Source of the DNA: Planctomycetota bacterium
GTDB lineage: Bacteria > Planctomycetota > UBA8742 > JACQVU01 > JANLHZ01
Reading direction: 5' to 3'
Assembly: GCA_024653775.1 (NCBI GenBank)
Contig: JANLHZ010000185.1
Coordinates: 1-57,935, forward strand
Length of the DNA stretch: 57,935 nt
Shown here: piece by piece, positions 14,081 through 52,831 of the stretch
Layout of the letters: each line of letters begins with the position of its first letter
Numbering within the stretch: position 1 is the stretch's first letter
Notes under the pieces: model-generated
What the model was told of the DNA's origin: nothing
The model's input: only the letters and a program-made list of their open reading frames with translations
Databases searched by the model: none
Made by a program: the position numbers and the translations under genes

Positions 14081-14122
14081 TAGTCAGTAGTCAGTAGTCA
14101 GTAGGTTGTTAGTTGTTGGTAA
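14081..14122. repeat. Heptamer array (TAGTCAG), operon gap
   Basis: Three exact TAGTCAG units (14081-14101), followed by degenerate TAGGTTG, TTAGTTG and TTGGTAA. It lies just upstream of the start of the second binding protein. The same unit appears at 25933. Confidence 0.85.
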
Positions 14123-14134
14123 ATCTGAAATCTT

Positions 14135-14199
14135 GATAACTTTGGCGCCCTATCGGACGCGTGGCTCGATAACTTTGGCGCCCAATCTGGCGCGTGGCT
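14135..14199. repeat. Two tandem copies of a 32-nt REP-like hairpin unit
   Basis: Units at 14135-14166 and 14168-14199 both read GATAACTTTGGCGCCC then a short loop, then a complementary G/C-rich arm and GTGGCT. The central part folds as GCGCCC-loop-GGGCGC (imperfect here). A third unit lies on the opposite strand at 35159-35190, after the NtrC-type gene. It sits between the permease and binding-protein genes of the betaine locus. Confidence 0.85.
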
Positions 14200-14203
14200 G
14201 AAA

Positions 14204-15052
14204 TCACTCCCTGCGACTCGCGCGCATAATCCGGTCGAGAACGATCGCGAGGATCACGATGCCGACGCCGGCTTCGAATCCCGCGCCGAGCTGAAGGCGC
14301 TGGATCGCCTTCCACACTTCGCTACCGAGTCCGCCCGCGCCGATCATCGCTGAGATGACGACCATCGAAAGCGCGAGCATTATCGTCTGGTTGACGCCCG
14401 CCATTATCGAAGGCGTCGCGGTTGGAAGCTGTACCGTGACGAGCTTCTGCCAGCGCGTCGCGCCGAACGCGTCCGCCGCCTCGGTGAGGTCCTTAGGCGT
14501 CTGGTCGATCCCGAGCACCGTCAGCCTGATCGCGGGCGGCATAGCGAACACGACGGTCGAAAATATCGCGGACGTGTTGCCGAGTCCGAAGAACGGGATC
14601 GCGGGAATCAGATAGACGAACGCCGGGAGCGTCTGCATGAAGTCGAGCGCGGGCATCGTCACCCGACGAAATCCGACCGACAGCGCCGCCGCGATGCCGA
14701 GCGGAATTCCGAGGAGAACACAGATCGAGGTAGAAAGGAGCACGAGTACAAGCGTGGATACCGCGGGCGCGAATAGTCCGAGGTTCCAGATGAACGCGAA
14801 TCCGAAGAACGTGAAAAGCGTGACGCCAACCCTTCTCGTGAGCCACCACGCGACGAGCGCGAAAAACAGAATCACCACGATCGGCGGGAAGAATCCGATG
14901 AACCCCTCGAGTTCGCGGATGGCGCCGTCGACAACGAGCGAAAGCGATTTCGTCAGCTTCGAGAAGCTGCTCTCCAGAAAATCGATGCACCGCTCCACCG
15001 CCTCGCCGAGAGGGATTTTCGGGATTTCGATTTCTGCGGTTGTAGTATTCAT
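14204..15052 (-). CDS. proW: Glycine betaine/proline-type ABC transporter permease
   Basis: 282 aa, ProW/OpuAB family. An N-terminal amphipathic stretch is followed by about six or seven transmembrane helices. The cytoplasmic coupling segment is seen in DLTEAADAFGATRWQKLVTV (about 192-211), the EAA-type loop. PALDFMQTLPAFVYLIPAIPFFG and SMVVISAMIGAGGLGSEVW are characteristic of the family. It forms the membrane channel with the adjoining ATPase and imports betaine-type solutes. It starts 30 nt after the ATPase stop; a heptamer array fills that gap. Confidence 0.93.
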   Translation of the reverse strand: MNTTTAEIEIPKIPLGEAVERCIDFLESSFSKLTKSLSLVVDGAIRELEGFIGFFPPIVVILFFALVAWWLTRRVGVTLFTFFGFAFIWNLGLFAPAVSTLVLVLLSTSICVLLGIPLGIAAALSVGFRRVTMPALDFMQTLPAFVYLIPAIPFFGLGNTSAIFSTVVFAMPPAIRLTVLGIDQTPKDLTEAADAFGATRWQKLVTVQLPTATPSIMAGVNQTIMLALSMVVISAMIGAGGLGSEVWKAIQRLQLGAGFEAGVGIVILAIVLDRIMRASRRE

Positions 15053-18123: not shown

Positions 18124-18263
18124 GAGCTTGGGAGTGCAGGCGTCTCGCCTGCGCATCTTCAAATCCATCATCTGCTGGTTTCAACAGACAATGCTTATCT
18201 TATCCATCAGTCGAGGACGCCTGATGGATTTTGCGGACGAGGACGTCCGCGTTCCCAGCCCGT
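18124..18263. repeat. Composite hairpin repeat upstream of cysNC
   Basis: GCAGGCGTCTCGCCTGC forms a tight hairpin on the left, and GCGGACGAGGACGTCCGC forms another on the right. GCTTGGGA near the left end and TCCCAGC at the right end are partly complementary and close the unit. The right hairpin recurs at 52743-52761. Confidence 0.65.
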
Positions 18264-24005: not shown

Positions 24006-25928
24006 TCACTCGAAGAATACCTTGACGATGGCGCCGTCGGTGAGGAGTTCGTTTCCCGAGGTGAGCACGGTGTCGCCGTCTATGACGCCCTGAAGGAGGA
24101 ATTTATCGCGAAGCTCTGTCTCGACGCTCGGGATGAGTACCCGCGCCTTCGAGATTCCGTATGGAAGCGTCTCGCCGCCGCGAACCGGACTCGACGACGC
24201 GCTCACCTTGCCAGAAAGCGTCAGGCGCGTAATCTCGCGGTTGGTGTGAATGTCGATCACCGACGCCCGCGCCTCCTTCATCTCGAAGCTCTCCCACGGC
24301 TCGAGCGCGACCGCGAACGCGTCGATGGAAATCGATCCGCCAGGGCCTGCGCGCACGAATCTGAAATACGACCTGAATTTTCCGGAATTGTCCGCCGCGG
24401 GGAGCTTTTCGTCCAGCGGAGCGTAGCAGTCTACAACCGACTTTCGATCGATCGAAAGATACGAACTCGCGGCGTAGTCGCGATCCTTGTCGTCCATTCC
24501 TTCGTCTTCGATTTTGAAGGAAATCTCGTTCCACACGTTTTCGACGTCGAAAATCACAAGCTCGGGACTCTGTACGAGATCGCTCGCCGCGGTGCAGTTC
24601 GAAAATTTAACCCCGGTTCCGACCGCGATTTCGTCGCCCGCGCGAATTTCACCGACGCGAGGAAGTCCGCGGGCGCCCTTGTCATGAACCACGGCTTCTA
24701 CGCGGAACCCGCTTCCCGCGGATCGGGCGCGCTCGACGTGAGCGAAGTACGAAACCATCTCCTCCGAACTCTGCGAACCCGCGCGCTTCGCCATCAGAAG
24801 GAAGCGCTGCCGGCTCTCCGGCTTCTCGCCTAGTCCGGCGCCCAGCCATCCGCCATCGGGAACGTCGATTGCGAGCCGACCCATAGTTCTTCGGACGACG
24901 GCGTTCCTCGGCACCGCGATAGAGTTCGGGAACACGTCCGTTACGATTTCGACTCCGGCGGAAAGTCCTTCGAACAGCGCGGGAAGTTTCCGCGTCTCGA
25001 TCCCGTGCGAGCGATCCTCCTCCGAGATCAGCTCAGGCAGGACGCTTTCCTCGAAGCTGTCGCGAATCCGTAGCTGCACCTTGTACCGTCTTCCCGCGTC
25101 CGGCGCAGGCGACATCCGTAGCACGTCGGCATCGAACGTCCGGCCCTGCGAGTCCACATGGATTCTTGCGGGATCGCCGATCGCGACGCTGACCGCATCC
25201 GGTTCCGCGAGTCCGACTTCGACGAGCGCGGTCGAAAAATCCTGAAGCGTAAACAACGTCATCCCCGGCGAAACGAACTGCCCCACTTCGACGACCATGT
25301 CCGTCACGTACCCCGAAAACGGCGCCTTCAGCGTGCAGTCATCGAGACGGAGTTTTAGTCTGCCAAGTTCCGCGCTGAGTCGATCGAGTTCCGCCTTCGC
25401 GGCATTAGCATGGCCCCAAGTTTCGCGAAGCTCGACGACGCCGTAGAGTTCGCCGCCGAGGAAATCTTCTATTTTGACCTCGGGATCGTCGAACGCGCCC
25501 TCTGGCAGCCCGACCGCGCGTCGTCGCTCGTTCCAAAGACCTTCCTTGAGACCGGAATCTATTTCAGCCTTCCTGATCTGCGCTTCGATGCTCCTGACCT
25601 GCTCCGAAAGGTCGCTCGAATCGATCTCGAGAATCGTTTCGTTCTCGCCAACGTGCGCGCCGAGGTAGTGTTCGATATGAAGAATGGTCCCGGTGACCTC
25701 GGCGGAAACGACTGTCTTTCGATTCGGGATGATCTTCCCGCGCGCGCGGACCGTCTTCCGGTTGTCGCCTTCTCGAAGAGTCACCGCGGTGACGACGATA
25801 TTATCCTCCGCGGGAATCGTCTCCGGAATTACCCGCAGAGCGTAATTCACCGCGCCCGTGATCGCGCCCAGAAGGACGAGTCCTAGTGGAACGAAAACCG
25901 AAATGCGCGCTTTTGTAACTCTGTTCAT
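24006..25928 (-). CDS. Efflux RND/HlyD-type periplasmic adaptor, unusually long
   Basis: 640 aa. An N-terminal membrane anchor (about 10-30) is followed by a half lipoyl domain (VRARGKIIPNRKTVVSAEVTGTIL), a helical hairpin (about 100-200, EQVRSIEAQIRKAEI), the second half lipoyl (LKAPFSGYVTDMVVEVGQFVSPG) and a beta-barrel. This is the membrane fusion protein plan. From about residue 330 a further 300 aa of beta-rich sequence follows, where typical adaptors have only about 100 aa; it includes RIGEIRAGDEIAVGTG-like and QGVIDGDTVLTSG segments resembling duplicated membrane-proximal domains. No transporter gene is adjacent; the TolC-like gene at 48260 is 22 kb away. Confidence 0.8.
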   Translation of the reverse strand: MNRVTKARISVFVPLGLVLLGAITGAVNYALRVIPETIPAEDNIVVTAVTLREGDNRKTVRARGKIIPNRKTVVSAEVTGTILHIEHYLGAHVGENETILEIDSSDLSEQVRSIEAQIRKAEIDSGLKEGLWNERRRAVGLPEGAFDDPEVKIEDFLGGELYGVVELRETWGHANAAKAELDRLSAELGRLKLRLDDCTLKAPFSGYVTDMVVEVGQFVSPGMTLFTLQDFSTALVEVGLAEPDAVSVAIGDPARIHVDSQGRTFDADVLRMSPAPDAGRRYKVQLRIRDSFEESVLPELISEEDRSHGIETRKLPALFEGLSAGVEIVTDVFPNSIAVPRNAVVRRTMGRLAIDVPDGGWLGAGLGEKPESRQRFLLMAKRAGSQSSEEMVSYFAHVERARSAGSGFRVEAVVHDKGARGLPRVGEIRAGDEIAVGTGVKFSNCTAASDLVQSPELVIFDVENVWNEISFKIEDEGMDDKDRDYAASSYLSIDRKSVVDCYAPLDEKLPAADNSGKFRSYFRFVRAGPGGSISIDAFAVALEPWESFEMKEARASVIDIHTNREITRLTLSGKVSASSSPVRGGETLPYGISKARVLIPSVETELRDKFLLQGVIDGDTVLTSGNELLTDGAIVKVFFE

Positions 25929-25932
25929 CGAA

Positions 25933-25963
25933 TAGTAGTCAGTAGTCAGTTGTCGGTAGTCAG
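25933..25963. repeat. Heptamer array (TAGTCAG type)
   Basis: Units read TAGTCAG, TAGTCAG, TTGTCGG, TAGTCAG after a leading TAG. It lies in the short gap between the adaptor and ceramidase-like genes and shares its unit with 14081. Confidence 0.8.
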
Positions 25964-25985
25964 AAAATTCGATCCTAAAACGAAA

Positions 25986-27389
25986 CTAGAAATCCTCGCT
26001 TCCTCCGCCCGGCGCTGGCGCGGTCTCTGGAGCGTCCCGCAGGAAAGGTCTTGGACTGAAAATTTCGAAATGGATTTCGAGGAACCGATCCACGACGTCC
26101 GGGCCGTAGAAGTTGAGTCCCTTCTCGTACTGGTGGGTGCTCGCGCTCTCCGGAGCGTAGTTGTCGCGGTGGACGAAATAGCCGAGGTGGTCGAGCGCAA
26201 GTCCGAAGATGAACGCCTGTTTGAACCCGGTCTCGCGCGCCCTGCTCTTCAGATCGAGTCCGATCTGAGCGCAGGGTTCTCCGGGGATGCTCATTATCAG
26301 CGTGTCGTCGATTATAAGCTGCGAGAACCAGCTCTCGTGCAGCGCGACCGCCCACTTGAGACGGTCCGCGAATCCGCCCGAAGCTGGCATATCGAGCTTC
26401 TGCATGCTGAAGTCGATCGCCGGTCTCGAAGTCATCGCGCCGACGTGCTCCTGGACTTCATTCACCTTGCCGGCGAGGTAGAATCCCATCCGGTCGGTTT
26501 TTTCGAACGCCCCGTCGTGGGGAAGCGGGCACGTCGGACGCTGATCGCCTTCCGCACCCTGGATGAACATCGCGACGACGCCCTCTTCGTGCAGCTTCTC
26601 GAAATGGTTGCAGAACGCGCCGCAATATTCGCTGGTCACGAGCATGTTGCTTCCGCCGTGGCAGGTAGGATGGGTCGCGTAGTTTGCCATCAGTCCGATA
26701 AGCTTTCCTTCGAGGTCCGTCACCCGGATGACTCCTAGCTGCGGGTCTATTGGACCTCCGTCGACGCCGCGGTTGGTCGTCAGCTCCGGAACGTCCATGG
26801 TGCCGACGCCGATCTTCGCGGGCGCGAGATTGTTCCACGCTTCCTTGATCGATTCGACCACGTTCGCGATGGTCTCGTCAAGGAATCCCTGGTTGAACGT
26901 GCCGCAGGTCGCGCGGAACAGCGTGTCCATCGCGATCGATCCGGAAGGCGACGCCATCGCGCCGTAACTCGAATGATTGTGTGTCGCAGTGACCATGATG
27001 TCGTCGATCGTTATCGGCAGATCCGCAGGCAGCGCGTCCGCCAGCGGCTGGCGCAGAGTGTGCGAAACGCCGATGAGATCGAGGCATACTACGACCGCGA
27101 TTTCGTCCCCGGACTTCAGTATCAGCGTGCGCGCGTACACCGGATCGTGAACGCCTTCGCTTGGCGCGCCGTTACGATCTCCGTAGCCGCCGAGTGGAAG
27201 CCCTTCGTAAAGCTCGGAGACGAGGCTTTCGACGCCGAATCCGGCCTGTAGTTGCGGCGGAGGAACTTTTATCCCGCTCTTTACCGCGACTGAAGGTCCG
27301 TCCGCGGAAACCGCAACCGCGGCGCTCGCGAAAAGTATCGTCACCAGGGCGGTAAGGAACAATGCTGAGGACTTTCTGGCTTTGCGCAT
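25986..27389 (-). CDS. Secreted neutral/alkaline ceramidase-like protein
   Basis: 467 aa with a cleavable signal peptide (MRKARKSSALFL...AVAVSA). The N-terminal ceramidase domain is recognisable: AGFGVESLV, DPVYARTLIL, VVVCLDLIGV, MVTATHNHSSYG and ANYATHPTCHG, which supply the zinc-binding His residues. The family motif GDVSPN that carries the nucleophilic Ser in neutral ceramidase appears here as GAEGDQRPT, with no Ser at that place. It also lacks the C-terminal Ig-like domain of the Pseudomonas enzyme. It is therefore a family member with doubtful ceramidase activity, probably a different secreted hydrolase or a binding protein. Its leader and signal region are duplicated at 44481. Confidence 0.78.
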   Translation of the reverse strand: MRKARKSSALFLTALVTILFASAAVAVSADGPSVAVKSGIKVPPPQLQAGFGVESLVSELYEGLPLGGYGDRNGAPSEGVHDPVYARTLILKSGDEIAVVVCLDLIGVSHTLRQPLADALPADLPITIDDIMVTATHNHSSYGAMASPSGSIAMDTLFRATCGTFNQGFLDETIANVVESIKEAWNNLAPAKIGVGTMDVPELTTNRGVDGGPIDPQLGVIRVTDLEGKLIGLMANYATHPTCHGGSNMLVTSEYCGAFCNHFEKLHEEGVVAMFIQGAEGDQRPTCPLPHDGAFEKTDRMGFYLAGKVNEVQEHVGAMTSRPAIDFSMQKLDMPASGGFADRLKWAVALHESWFSQLIIDDTLIMSIPGEPCAQIGLDLKSRARETGFKQAFIFGLALDHLGYFVHRDNYAPESASTHQYEKGLNFYGPDVVDRFLEIHFEIFSPRPFLRDAPETAPAPGGGSEDF

Positions 27390-27561
27390 CTTGTCTCCGT
27401 GGCTTATCGTGCGGACCTTTCGCCCGCAACTTGCCTCCCTCTGCTTTTGGCGTAGGGCTGGGGCGAGGGTAAACTAAAAAGGGTACTCTATCACCAAGGT
27501 ACGTTCGATTAAAGCGTTTGATTGTTTGTAAAGGATCGAGGAGGTGAGGAAACCTTGGAGT

Positions 27562-27579
27562 GCTGAACGTAAGTTCAGC
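27562..27579. repeat. Short hairpin, 7-bp stem
   Basis: GCTGAAC (27562-27568), loop GTAA, GTTCAGC (27573-27579). It lies in the 27390-27767 gap, close to the 139-bp element. Confidence 0.6.
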
Positions 27580-27585
27580 TTTGGT

Positions 27586-27724
27586 AACTGTTCATGGGGT
27601 AGTTCGCAGTATATAGCGGGAATCTGTTCGTAGTGTGCTCGTGAGAGCATATTTCCAGATAGTTAGAAGATCAAAGAAACGCCTTACGGCGCCACTACGA
27701 ACGCGAACTACCCCGTGAACAGTT
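27586..27724. mobile_element. 139-bp inverted-repeat element, family 2, copy A (MITE-like)
   Basis: Terminal arms 27586-27607 and 27703-27724 (22 nt) are reverse complements with one mismatch. The whole element, read on the minus strand, matches 49659-49796 at roughly nine bases in ten. A second, inner inverted pair (GTTCGTAGTG and CACTACGAAC) nests inside. No clear target duplication is visible here, and it has no coding capacity. Confidence 0.87.
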
Positions 27725-27767
27725 TCACTTCCTGTGCGTTCCGCGATTTCCGTGGTTTAATAATCCT

Positions 27768-33641: not shown

Positions 33642-33680
33642 GGAGGGCGAATCCGCGTAACGAAGGCCCTGTGGATTTGC

Positions 33681-33729
33681 GGACATAGACGACCGCGGTC
33701 CCAGGTGCCTACGATAGTTTCTAAGGAGT
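33681..33729. repeat. Single-ended copy of the 118-bp repeat (family 4)
   Basis: The sequence CGGTCCCAGGTGCCTACG followed by ATAGTTTCTAAGG is the reverse complement of the left half of the element at 52714-52831, including the CTATCGTAGG-type terminus. The opposite terminus is not present. Confidence 0.75.
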
Positions 33730-33818
33730 CGGAATGATTTTGACCGCGCATTTGCAGGGCTGTTAGAATCGATTTCGAGCATTTAAGCGGCGGGGCAACC
33801 TTCGAAAGCGAGAACGAC

Positions 33819-35147: not shown

Positions 35148-35158
35148 GGCGGGGTTTC

Positions 35159-35190
35159 AGCCACGCGCCCGATAGGGCGCCAAAGTTATC
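35159..35190. repeat. REP-like 32-nt hairpin unit (opposite strand to 14135)
   Basis: GCGCCC-GATA-GGGCGC forms a perfect 6-bp stem within a unit otherwise identical to those at 14135-14199 read on the other strand. The flanking GAGATTTCAGATT is also shared with the 14120 region. Confidence 0.85.
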
Positions 35191-35227
35191 GAGATTTCAG
35201 ATTGAACATCCTACTTCTGACTCTACA

Positions 35228-43326: not shown

Positions 43327-44352
43327 ATGCTCCATTACCTCATCCCGATTTCCATCGCGATTTTCCTCGCAATCAATATGGGAGCGAGCGGAACCTCGCC
43401 GTCGTTTTCCGCGACCTTTGGCGCTAATCTGATACGCCGCGACCTTATCCCAGGGCTTTTCGGCTTCTTCGTCCTGCTTGGCGCCGCGACGGCGGGAAGC
43501 AGAGTGGCGAAGACCCTCGGGTTCGGGATTCTTCCGGGGAACCTGATGACGACTTCGAGCGTCTGCATTATTCTGCTCGCGTGCGCTCTTTCCCTGCTAT
43601 TTGCGAACATTCTGAAGACGCCGCAGTCAACGAGTCAGTCCGCGGTGTTCGCAATATGCGGCGTCGCAATTTACAAGGATGAAATCGACTGGGATAAGGT
43701 TCTGTTCGAGATCGTGCCCACGTGGTTCATCCTGCCTGTGATTGCATTCGCGATTACATACGCCTTTGGAAAGTTCGTATACAAACGGCTGCGCGACCGA
43801 CCCATGATGAGCTTCGTTCTGACTGAAAAAAGCCGTGCGTGGAAATATCTGACGATTTTGTGTTCCTGCTACGTCGCTTACGCTATCGGTTCGAACAATG
43901 TCGCGAACGCGGCAGGTCCTCTCGCGGCAATGGTGTGCGGCGATCTCGGCATTTCGCAGGGAAGCGACGAGTCCGCGATAATAATCCTGATTTCTATGCT
44001 TCTCGTCGCGCCTTGGTTTGGAATTGGCAGTTCCCTCCTCGGCCCGAGAGTTCTTGAAACGACGGGTAAAGACATCGTGAGCATAGGACCGTTCAGCGCA
44101 GCTTTCGTCACCTTCCTTACGGCTACGCTTCTGCTTCTTGCTTCGCTGACCCGTGGAATCCCGACATCTCTCGTTCAGCTTAACACTGCGAGCATTTTTG
44201 CGCTGGCGTTGCTGAAAGTGGGGACCGGCGAATTCGTTTCCAGAAAAACGGTCTTGAAGCTATGCGGCATCTGGATCATGGCGCCGGCAATGGCATTCGC
44301 GCTCGCGCTACTGTTTTGCGCCGTTCTGGAGGGAATAGACGTTCGGCTGTAG
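43327..44352 (+). CDS. PiT-family inorganic anion permease (phosphate, or sulfate as CysP)
   Basis: 341 aa with about ten helices. The PiT signature appears twice: MGASGTSPSFSATFGA near the N-terminus (degenerate) and GSNNVANAAGPLAAM near residue 190. The compact length lacks the long cytoplasmic loop of the E. coli Pit proteins. Bacillus CysP, a sulfate permease, belongs to this group, and cysNC is in this window, but the two genes are 23 kb apart. Ion and coupling (H+ or Na+) cannot be read from the sequence. Confidence 0.82.
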   Translation: MLHYLIPISIAIFLAINMGASGTSPSFSATFGANLIRRDLIPGLFGFFVLLGAATAGSRVAKTLGFGILPGNLMTTSSVCIILLACALSLLFANILKTPQSTSQSAVFAICGVAIYKDEIDWDKVLFEIVPTWFILPVIAFAITYAFGKFVYKRLRDRPMMSFVLTEKSRAWKYLTILCSCYVAYAIGSNNVANAAGPLAAMVCGDLGISQGSDESAIIILISMLLVAPWFGIGSSLLGPRVLETTGKDIVSIGPFSAAFVTFLTATLLLLASLTRGIPTSLVQLNTASIFALALLKVGTGEFVSRKTVLKLCGIWIMAPAMAFALALLFCAVLEGIDVRL

Positions 44353-44425: not shown

Positions 44426-44473
44426 AGTGAACTTACCTCGTTTTTTGTGTGCCCCAAAACGGGGAAGTTCACT
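44426..44473. repeat. Long imperfect hairpin, 17-bp arms
   Basis: AGTGAACTT...CGTTTT (44426-44444) and AAAACGGGGAAGTTCACT (44456-44473) are complementary apart from two positions. It lies just before the duplicated leader at 44481; no T-tract follows in the plus direction. Confidence 0.65.
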
Positions 44474-44480
44474 CGACCCC

Positions 44481-44767
44481 TCGATCCTCATTTGCTATCA
44501 AACGCTTTAATCGAACGTACCTTGGTGATAGAGCACCCTTTTTAGTTTACCCCCGCCCCGGTCCTGATCCGCGAGCAGAGGGAGGCAAGTTGTGGGCGAA
44601 AGGTCCGCACGATAAGCCATGGAAACAAGATGCGCAAAGCCAGAAAGTCCTCAGCCTTGATTCTTTCCGTCCTGGTGACGATCCTTTTCGCGAGCGCGGC
44701 GGTTGCGGTTTCCGCGGAGGGACTCGTCGTTCCGACCATCGCCTTCGTGCTCGTGGCGCTCGATTAG
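44481..44767 (+). pseudogene. Duplicated leader and signal-peptide fragment of the ceramidase-like gene, with a 45-codon ORF
   Basis: From about 44481 to 44726 the sequence repeats, on the other strand, the leader and first ~30 codons of the gene at 25986-27389. Both copies share CTTTAATCGAACGTACCTTG, GAGGGAGGCAAGTTG and GTCCGCACGATAAGCCA. The ATG at 44630 opens a 45-codon ORF (to 44767): the same signal peptide, MRKARKSSALILSVLVTILF, then SAEGLVVPTIAFVLVALD and a stop. The ceramidase-like domain is absent. Either it is a dead fragment or it yields a short secreted or membrane peptide under a copied promoter. The remainder of the gap up to katG shows no gene. Confidence 0.75.
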
Positions 44768-45128
44768 CGATTTTTTAGCGCAATGCGACTTGCGCATTAC
44801 CGGTAAAGGACAGCGCCTGCTTTGAATCGATGAAAGATTAAAAAAGGAACCACTCTCGGTTGTCTTCCGACTCCACCGACTAACCACCGAGGAAGACAGC
44901 CACCCACAGGGACAAGCCTAAATCTGCCCCCTGTTTTTTTGCAGAATAAGTCACTATTCATTCGGGAGCCTTCAGGGAAGGCCCATTCGCCCATGCGAAT
45001 TGGGGTATAATTGAATTATTCCATAGCGGAGAAGACTCGAAGGAAAACGACGACGAAAAACTTTCTGCATTGGAAAACAGACCCGCACAATCACCCGCAT
45101 CAGGGACGGCATTAGGATTACGCGCTAA

Positions 45129-47366
<2,238 letters not shown>

Positions 47367-49656: not shown

Positions 49657-49796
49657 GTAACTGTTCACGGGGTTAAATGCGTTCGTAGTGACGCCGTAAG
49701 GCGTTTCTTTGATCCTCTACTATCTGGAAATATGCTCTCACGAGCACACTACGAACAGATTCTCGCTATAGACTGCGAACTACCCCGTGAACAGTT
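49657..49796. mobile_element. 138-bp inverted-repeat element, family 2, copy B, with 11-bp direct repeats
   Basis: The right terminus GCGAACTACCCCGTGAACAG... (49775-49796) and the left terminus AACTGTTCACGGGGT (from 49659) are complementary; the left inner arm has diverged. TTCGAGTAGGC occurs at 49646-49656 and again at 49796-49806, flanking the element as a direct repeat. The first copy includes the TAG stop of the TolC-like gene, so the insertion left the reading frame intact. The rest of the gap to 50078 shows no gene. Confidence 0.88.
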
Positions 49797-52654: not shown

Positions 52655-52707
52655 GGCGGTTTCAGCGGGGTTCAGCAAAATAGCTCCGCTGGAGCCGCCT
52701 TTTTTTT
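52655..52707 (+). terminator. Intrinsic terminator of the three-repeat lipoprotein gene
   Basis: GGCGGTTTCAGCGG (52655-52668) pairs with CCGCTGGAGCCGCC (52686-52699) over 14 positions including two G-T pairs, followed directly by eight T. Confidence 0.88.
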
Positions 52708-52713
52708 GCGATC

Positions 52714-52831
52714 CCTAAGAAACTATCGTGGGCACCTGGGACCGCGGACGTCCTCGTCCGCAAAAGCCGCCAAACGTCTCGTTTGACGGCTCCGAATTAT
52801 CGATGTCGCTTGCCTACGATAGTTTCTAAGG
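52714..52831. repeat. 118-bp inverted-repeat element, family 4
   Basis: Left arm 52714-52734 and right arm 52811-52831 are 21-nt complements with two mismatches. Two inner hairpins are visible: GCGGACGTCCTCGTCCGC and GCCG...GTCTCG...CGGC. A single-ended relative lies at 33681-33729, and the first inner hairpin recurs at 18232-18250. Confidence 0.85.

Follow-up and report, generated by a model that had tools for sequence, protein, structure and literature searches.

The DNA analysed here, referred to as the window, is one entire contig of 57,935 nt from a 5.4-Mb genome assembled in 331 contigs. Between a gene for a PiT-type phosphate permease (43327-44352) and katG (45171-47366) lies a gap of 0.8 kb, which holds a second copy of the leader that precedes a ceramidase-like gene and of this gene's export signal. 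A repeat search aligned positions 44497-44723 of the forward strand with positions 27296-27522 of the reverse strand over 227 nt with 91% identity, forming an inverted repeat with arms that are 16,974 nt apart. Base-by-base comparison of the pair revealed 21 substitutions, namely 12 transitions and 9 transversions, and no indels. In a search of the organism's own genome the 227-nt repeat reached an E-value of 2e-86, thus the match is not a product of chance. Weaker homology was found by nhmmer profile search to continue on the left to 44465, corresponding to about 27555 in the other arm. This extension (44465-44496, beginning with CTCGACCCCTCGATCCT) contributed a further 9.4 bits and was equalled by 2 of 700 random left flanks. 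Including it, the duplicated piece comprises about 260 bases. The start at 44481 given in the preliminary description falls within this homology, outside the strong match, which has its left edge at 44497. The piece is present twice in the genome and a third copy was not found there, which argues against a dispersed repeat family.

The source (or sister) copy at 27296-27554 on the reverse strand consists of the leader and the first 31 codons of an intact gene of 467 amino acids (25986-27389, reverse strand). Its product matches PF04734, the neutral/alkaline ceramidase family, with an E-value of 1.2e-21 and a score of 77.5 bits compared with a curated cut-off of 32.1. By this profile match the protein is a member of the family, which does not imply the substrate of a true neutral ceramidase; its score is far below the NCBIfam equivalog cut-off for neutral ceramidases. 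The first 31 codons encode a typical signal peptide (MRKARKSSALFLTALVTILFASAAVAVSADG). Ceramidase homologues share none of the N-terminal 43 residues, and alignments with them begin at residue 44-46. A homologue from the same order carries its own, unrelated signal peptide, and close relatives of the protein were not found in named genomes. The next gene behind the ceramidase stop is HlyD-like with its ATG at 25928, and short ACTGACTAC-type repeats in the gap between the two (25931-25985) are found again elsewhere in the genome (window 14122-13971, L068).

Other repeats are also found in the window, one of them beside the ceramidase leader. A MITE-like element of 138-139 nt with the terminal inverted repeats GTAACTGTTCACGGGGTAGTTCGC is present at 27586-27724 and 49659-49796. 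At least 40 near-full-length matches in the genome (87-100%; e.g. L056-L084) were scored out of 223 candidates, thus the true number is probably higher. Most inspected copies are flanked by target duplications of 8-9 bp, such as GCCTACTCG at 49659-49796. The GTAA ends and 8-bp duplications presumably recall IS66-type elements. The copy beside the ceramidase leader (27572-27738) differs from most copies in having no target duplication and in reading TT/TC instead of TT/AC at its right end, and the site looks as if it had been rearranged. Further short inverted repeat pairs in the window with 84-92% identity (14117-14210 and 35148-35208; 33676-33734, 18216-18258 and 52706-52778) probably represent other intergenic repeat families.

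Within the permease/katG gap, the copy of the untranslated leader (44497-44629) differs from the ceramidase leader at 13 of 133 nt, with 8 of these differences clustered at 44560-44573. It is followed by an open reading frame that starts with ATG at 44630, ends with its stop codon at 44767 and encodes the product MRKARKSSALILSVLVTILFASAAVAVSAEGLVVPTIAFVLVALD. The frame is composed of 31 copied signal-peptide codons (44630-44722, MRKARKSSALILSVLVTILFASAAVAVSAEG), 14 foreign codons (44723-44764, LVVPTIAFVLVALD) and TAG. Four of the 31 copied residues are changed, all conservatively, and the signal peptide is intact. These data agree with the preliminary description, which had reported a leader and signal peptide duplicated 17 kb away from a ceramidase-like gene, a new frame of 45 codons and its continuation past the signal peptide into unrelated sequence. 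Just 31 of the 467 codons of the parent gene are retained, and no match to the rest of the ceramidase body was found near the copy. The locus therefore shows two hallmarks of a truncated duplicate: clear homology to part of a gene that is intact elsewhere in the genome, and the absence of most of that gene.

The same early account had credited the frame with a ready-made promoter and ribosome site, and neither could be confirmed. The Shine-Dalgarno motif before the ceramidase ATG is GGAG, whereas a substitution at 44624 turned it into GGAA in the copy (44621-44624). The calculated duplex energy with the anti-Shine-Dalgarno sequence is −6.6 kcal/mol for the ceramidase gene versus −3.3 kcal/mol for the copy, which is close to the background of random 20-mers from the window (median −2.8). 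In addition, a C to T change at 44620 created a competing out-of-frame ATG (44619-44621; ACG in the ceramidase leader), located 11 nt upstream of the ATG of the frame. About half of the genes in the window likewise lack a clear Shine-Dalgarno motif, therefore the weak motif is no proof of silence. No sigma-70-like consensus promoter was recognisable in either copy of the leader, where a promoter of another type may be present. Of the three signals that a capture of expression and export functions should deliver intact, namely promoter, ribosome site and signal peptide, the signal peptide is intact, the ribosome site is weakened and the promoter is not recognisable. An alternative start at TTG (44590), behind GAGGGAGG, is not supported because the changes at 44593, 44620 and 44624, up to the ATG, would all alter amino acids. 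The leader matched no known RNA family at gathering score, gave nothing credible at E-values up to 10 and folded no better than shuffled sequences.

Divergence between the two copies is equal in the leader (13/133) and in the coding part (8/94). Four of the eight substitutions in the coding part change an amino acid, compared with a neutral expectation of 5.4 (P 0.24), and the absence of a stop codon is expected in 86% of neutral cases. The substitution data hence have little power. No constraint could be detected in the coding part, which favours decay. At 72% of random positions, a frame would be expected to stay open for at least 14 codons. The DNA of the copy was found neither in 60 relatives nor among 392 genomes of the phylum, a comparison in which the nearest genome belongs to the same order; no sister species or strain carrying the locus was found. 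The peptide has no homologue among the 392 genomes and belongs to no Pfam or NCBIfam family, and the neighbouring permease has no counterpart within the class. The leader was not found in viral contigs. Conservation of a leader motif in the phylum was considered as well: short matches occurred at positions 61-97 and 197-230 of the query, and the inspected ones fall within sequence that is unrelated and for the most part coding.

On the right of the copy, positions 44771-44871 align in the same orientation with the sequence that directly follows the ceramidase stop and runs into the start of the HlyD-like gene, and may be a remnant of both. In Smith-Waterman alignments with four scorings this match was equalled by 0-2 of 2000 dinucleotide shuffles and by 0-2 of 1010 genomic segments. 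In a stricter test by profile extension, with arbitrary tails placed behind the same core, 7 of 700 genomic tails and 11 of 500 shuffles did equally well. In a search with a profile of the ceramidase 3' flank alone, positions 44771-44871 were not among the best matches listed. The homology is thus suggestive, with a probability of about 1-2% of arising by chance. If it is real, the duplication originally took in the complete ceramidase gene and the copy then lost about 1.3 kb from its body, in which case the small frame would be a deletion product and not a captured leader. It would also follow that the core has changed far less than the flank, due either to gene conversion between the inverted copies or to constraint. 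On the left, just outside the strong match and behind the permease gene, a strong, near-perfect hairpin of 48 nt is present (44426-44473; −20.8 kcal/mol, z −4.2). The TTTTTTGTGTGCC..AAAA loop of this hairpin has one further occurrence in the genome (C104:14215), likewise in a hairpin-like setting; with just one other, partial instance, the hairpin does not qualify as a dispersed element.

Taking these data together, we consider it probable that the locus is a truncated, decaying and non-functional duplicate from the ceramidase gene, comprising the leader and signal peptide at its 5' end. We infer that the copying proceeded from the ceramidase gene, as that copy is an intact gene of a known family. 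The 5' end would have been copied into, or left behind in, the gap between permease and katG, either by duplication of the 5' end alone or by duplication of the whole gene and subsequent deletion of its body. The frame would then close by chance at the next in-frame stop, 14 codons on. Any remaining transcript would be poorly translated, since the ribosome site has decayed to background level, and a short export-signal peptide would be useless. Neutral decay alone does not predict a core that is less changed than its flank, should the right-flank homology be real, and both the absence of indels and stops over 227 nt at 9% divergence and the character of the tail speak against it. Thus, of the two outcomes proposed earlier, decaying fragment or gene birth, the near-neutral substitutions favour the former, while the hydrophobic and coding-like tail keeps the latter alive.

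This tail is a real oddity. The Kyte-Doolittle mean of LVVPTIAFVLVALD is 2.38, a value matched by 0 of 585 chance tails of equal length. It was reached by 0.17% of stop-free stretches in general, by 0.02% of those read off-frame and by 0.2% of those in unassigned DNA. In the frame of the ORF, the codon use of the tail resembles that of coding sequence (P 0.001 versus off-frame sequence, 0.012 versus unassigned DNA). Both tests were made after the tail had been seen and are correlated with each other. The tail may have come from within a coding sequence; a search of the genome found no source. No significant match was obtained with the body or C-terminus of the ceramidase. The last helix of the neighbouring permease shows a similar P-x-x-A-F pattern, but this origin was rejected: the DNA comparison gave P 0.03, the fit to the permease family is equalled by 5% of other hydrophobic 14-mers and the best-fitting position is in another helix.

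Based on the tail, the locus might encode an expressed small membrane protein, in which the helix of the copied signal peptide and a hydrophobic stretch of 13 residues form two membrane segments. Such a protein could have originated from fusion of the copied 5' end with another coding piece, born either by deletion or by duplication. Besides hydropathy and codon use, the intact frame, the conservative changes in the signal peptide and terminator-like structures downstream are consistent with this possibility. The latter consist of an 11-bp hairpin and an ACAGGG/CCCTGT hairpin with seven T (44858-44942, z −3.2); a consensus scan for terminators with a loop limit of 8 missed them. However, the weakened ribosome site with its competing ATG, the neutral substitution pattern, the lack of homologues in 392 genomes of the phylum and the post hoc nature of the tail statistics make this protein unlikely. 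The full proposal, that the leader and export signal were fused to the tail by deletion or insertion and that the two-segment product is expressed and kept by selection, is more doubtful still.

The two inverted copies could also have been kept alike in leader and signal peptide by gene conversion or recombination, whether or not the intervening 17 kb were inverted in the process, and their similarity would then say little about the age or function of the small ORF. The two copies lie inverted in one replicon and share identical runs of more than 30 nt, the 91% block is sharp-edged with much weaker similarity outside, and the MITE beside the ceramidase leader lacks its target duplication. Yet the alternative orientation of the 17 kb was not seen in the single assembly, and we regard this process as improbable. 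It is very improbable that the small gene came first and passed its leader and export signal on to the ceramidase gene. In favour of this order, there is no outgroup to polarise the event and ceramidase homologues do not share the N-terminus. Against it, the ribosome site of the ceramidase copy is the better one, its gene is intact and belongs to a known exported family, and a same-order homologue bears an unrelated signal peptide.

Truncated duplicates of gene 5' ends are ordinary in bacterial genomes. Like other such duplicates and pseudogene fragments, the locus lies between genes, repeats only part of a gene that is intact elsewhere and has decayed start signals; it differs from them in retaining exactly the leader and signal peptide and in its coding-like run-on tail. 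In deletion-born fusions (Kaul et al. 2026, preprint, PMC12803068), two existing genes are joined by deletion. The present case would be alike, provided that the body of the ceramidase gene was deleted, in that the 5' end of a gene was joined to foreign sequence in a new frame. In contrast to those fusions, only the left partner is known here, the right one has no match in the genome and the deletion itself is putative. In the proto-genes of the E. coli LTEE, existing promoters were recruited by rearrangement (uz-Zaman et al. 2024, PMC11101190), and here, too, a rearrangement places existing regulatory sequence before a non-genic stretch. Expression was measured in that study, whereas the present locus is known from sequence alone, and the copied piece adds a signal peptide.

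Should the frame be expressed, it would provide a natural case of a gene gaining start, expression and export signals in one duplication step, a process known mostly from laboratory evolution. As a relic, the more likely alternative, it shows how readily the decaying 5' fragment of a gene may mimic a newborn small secreted protein in genome scans.
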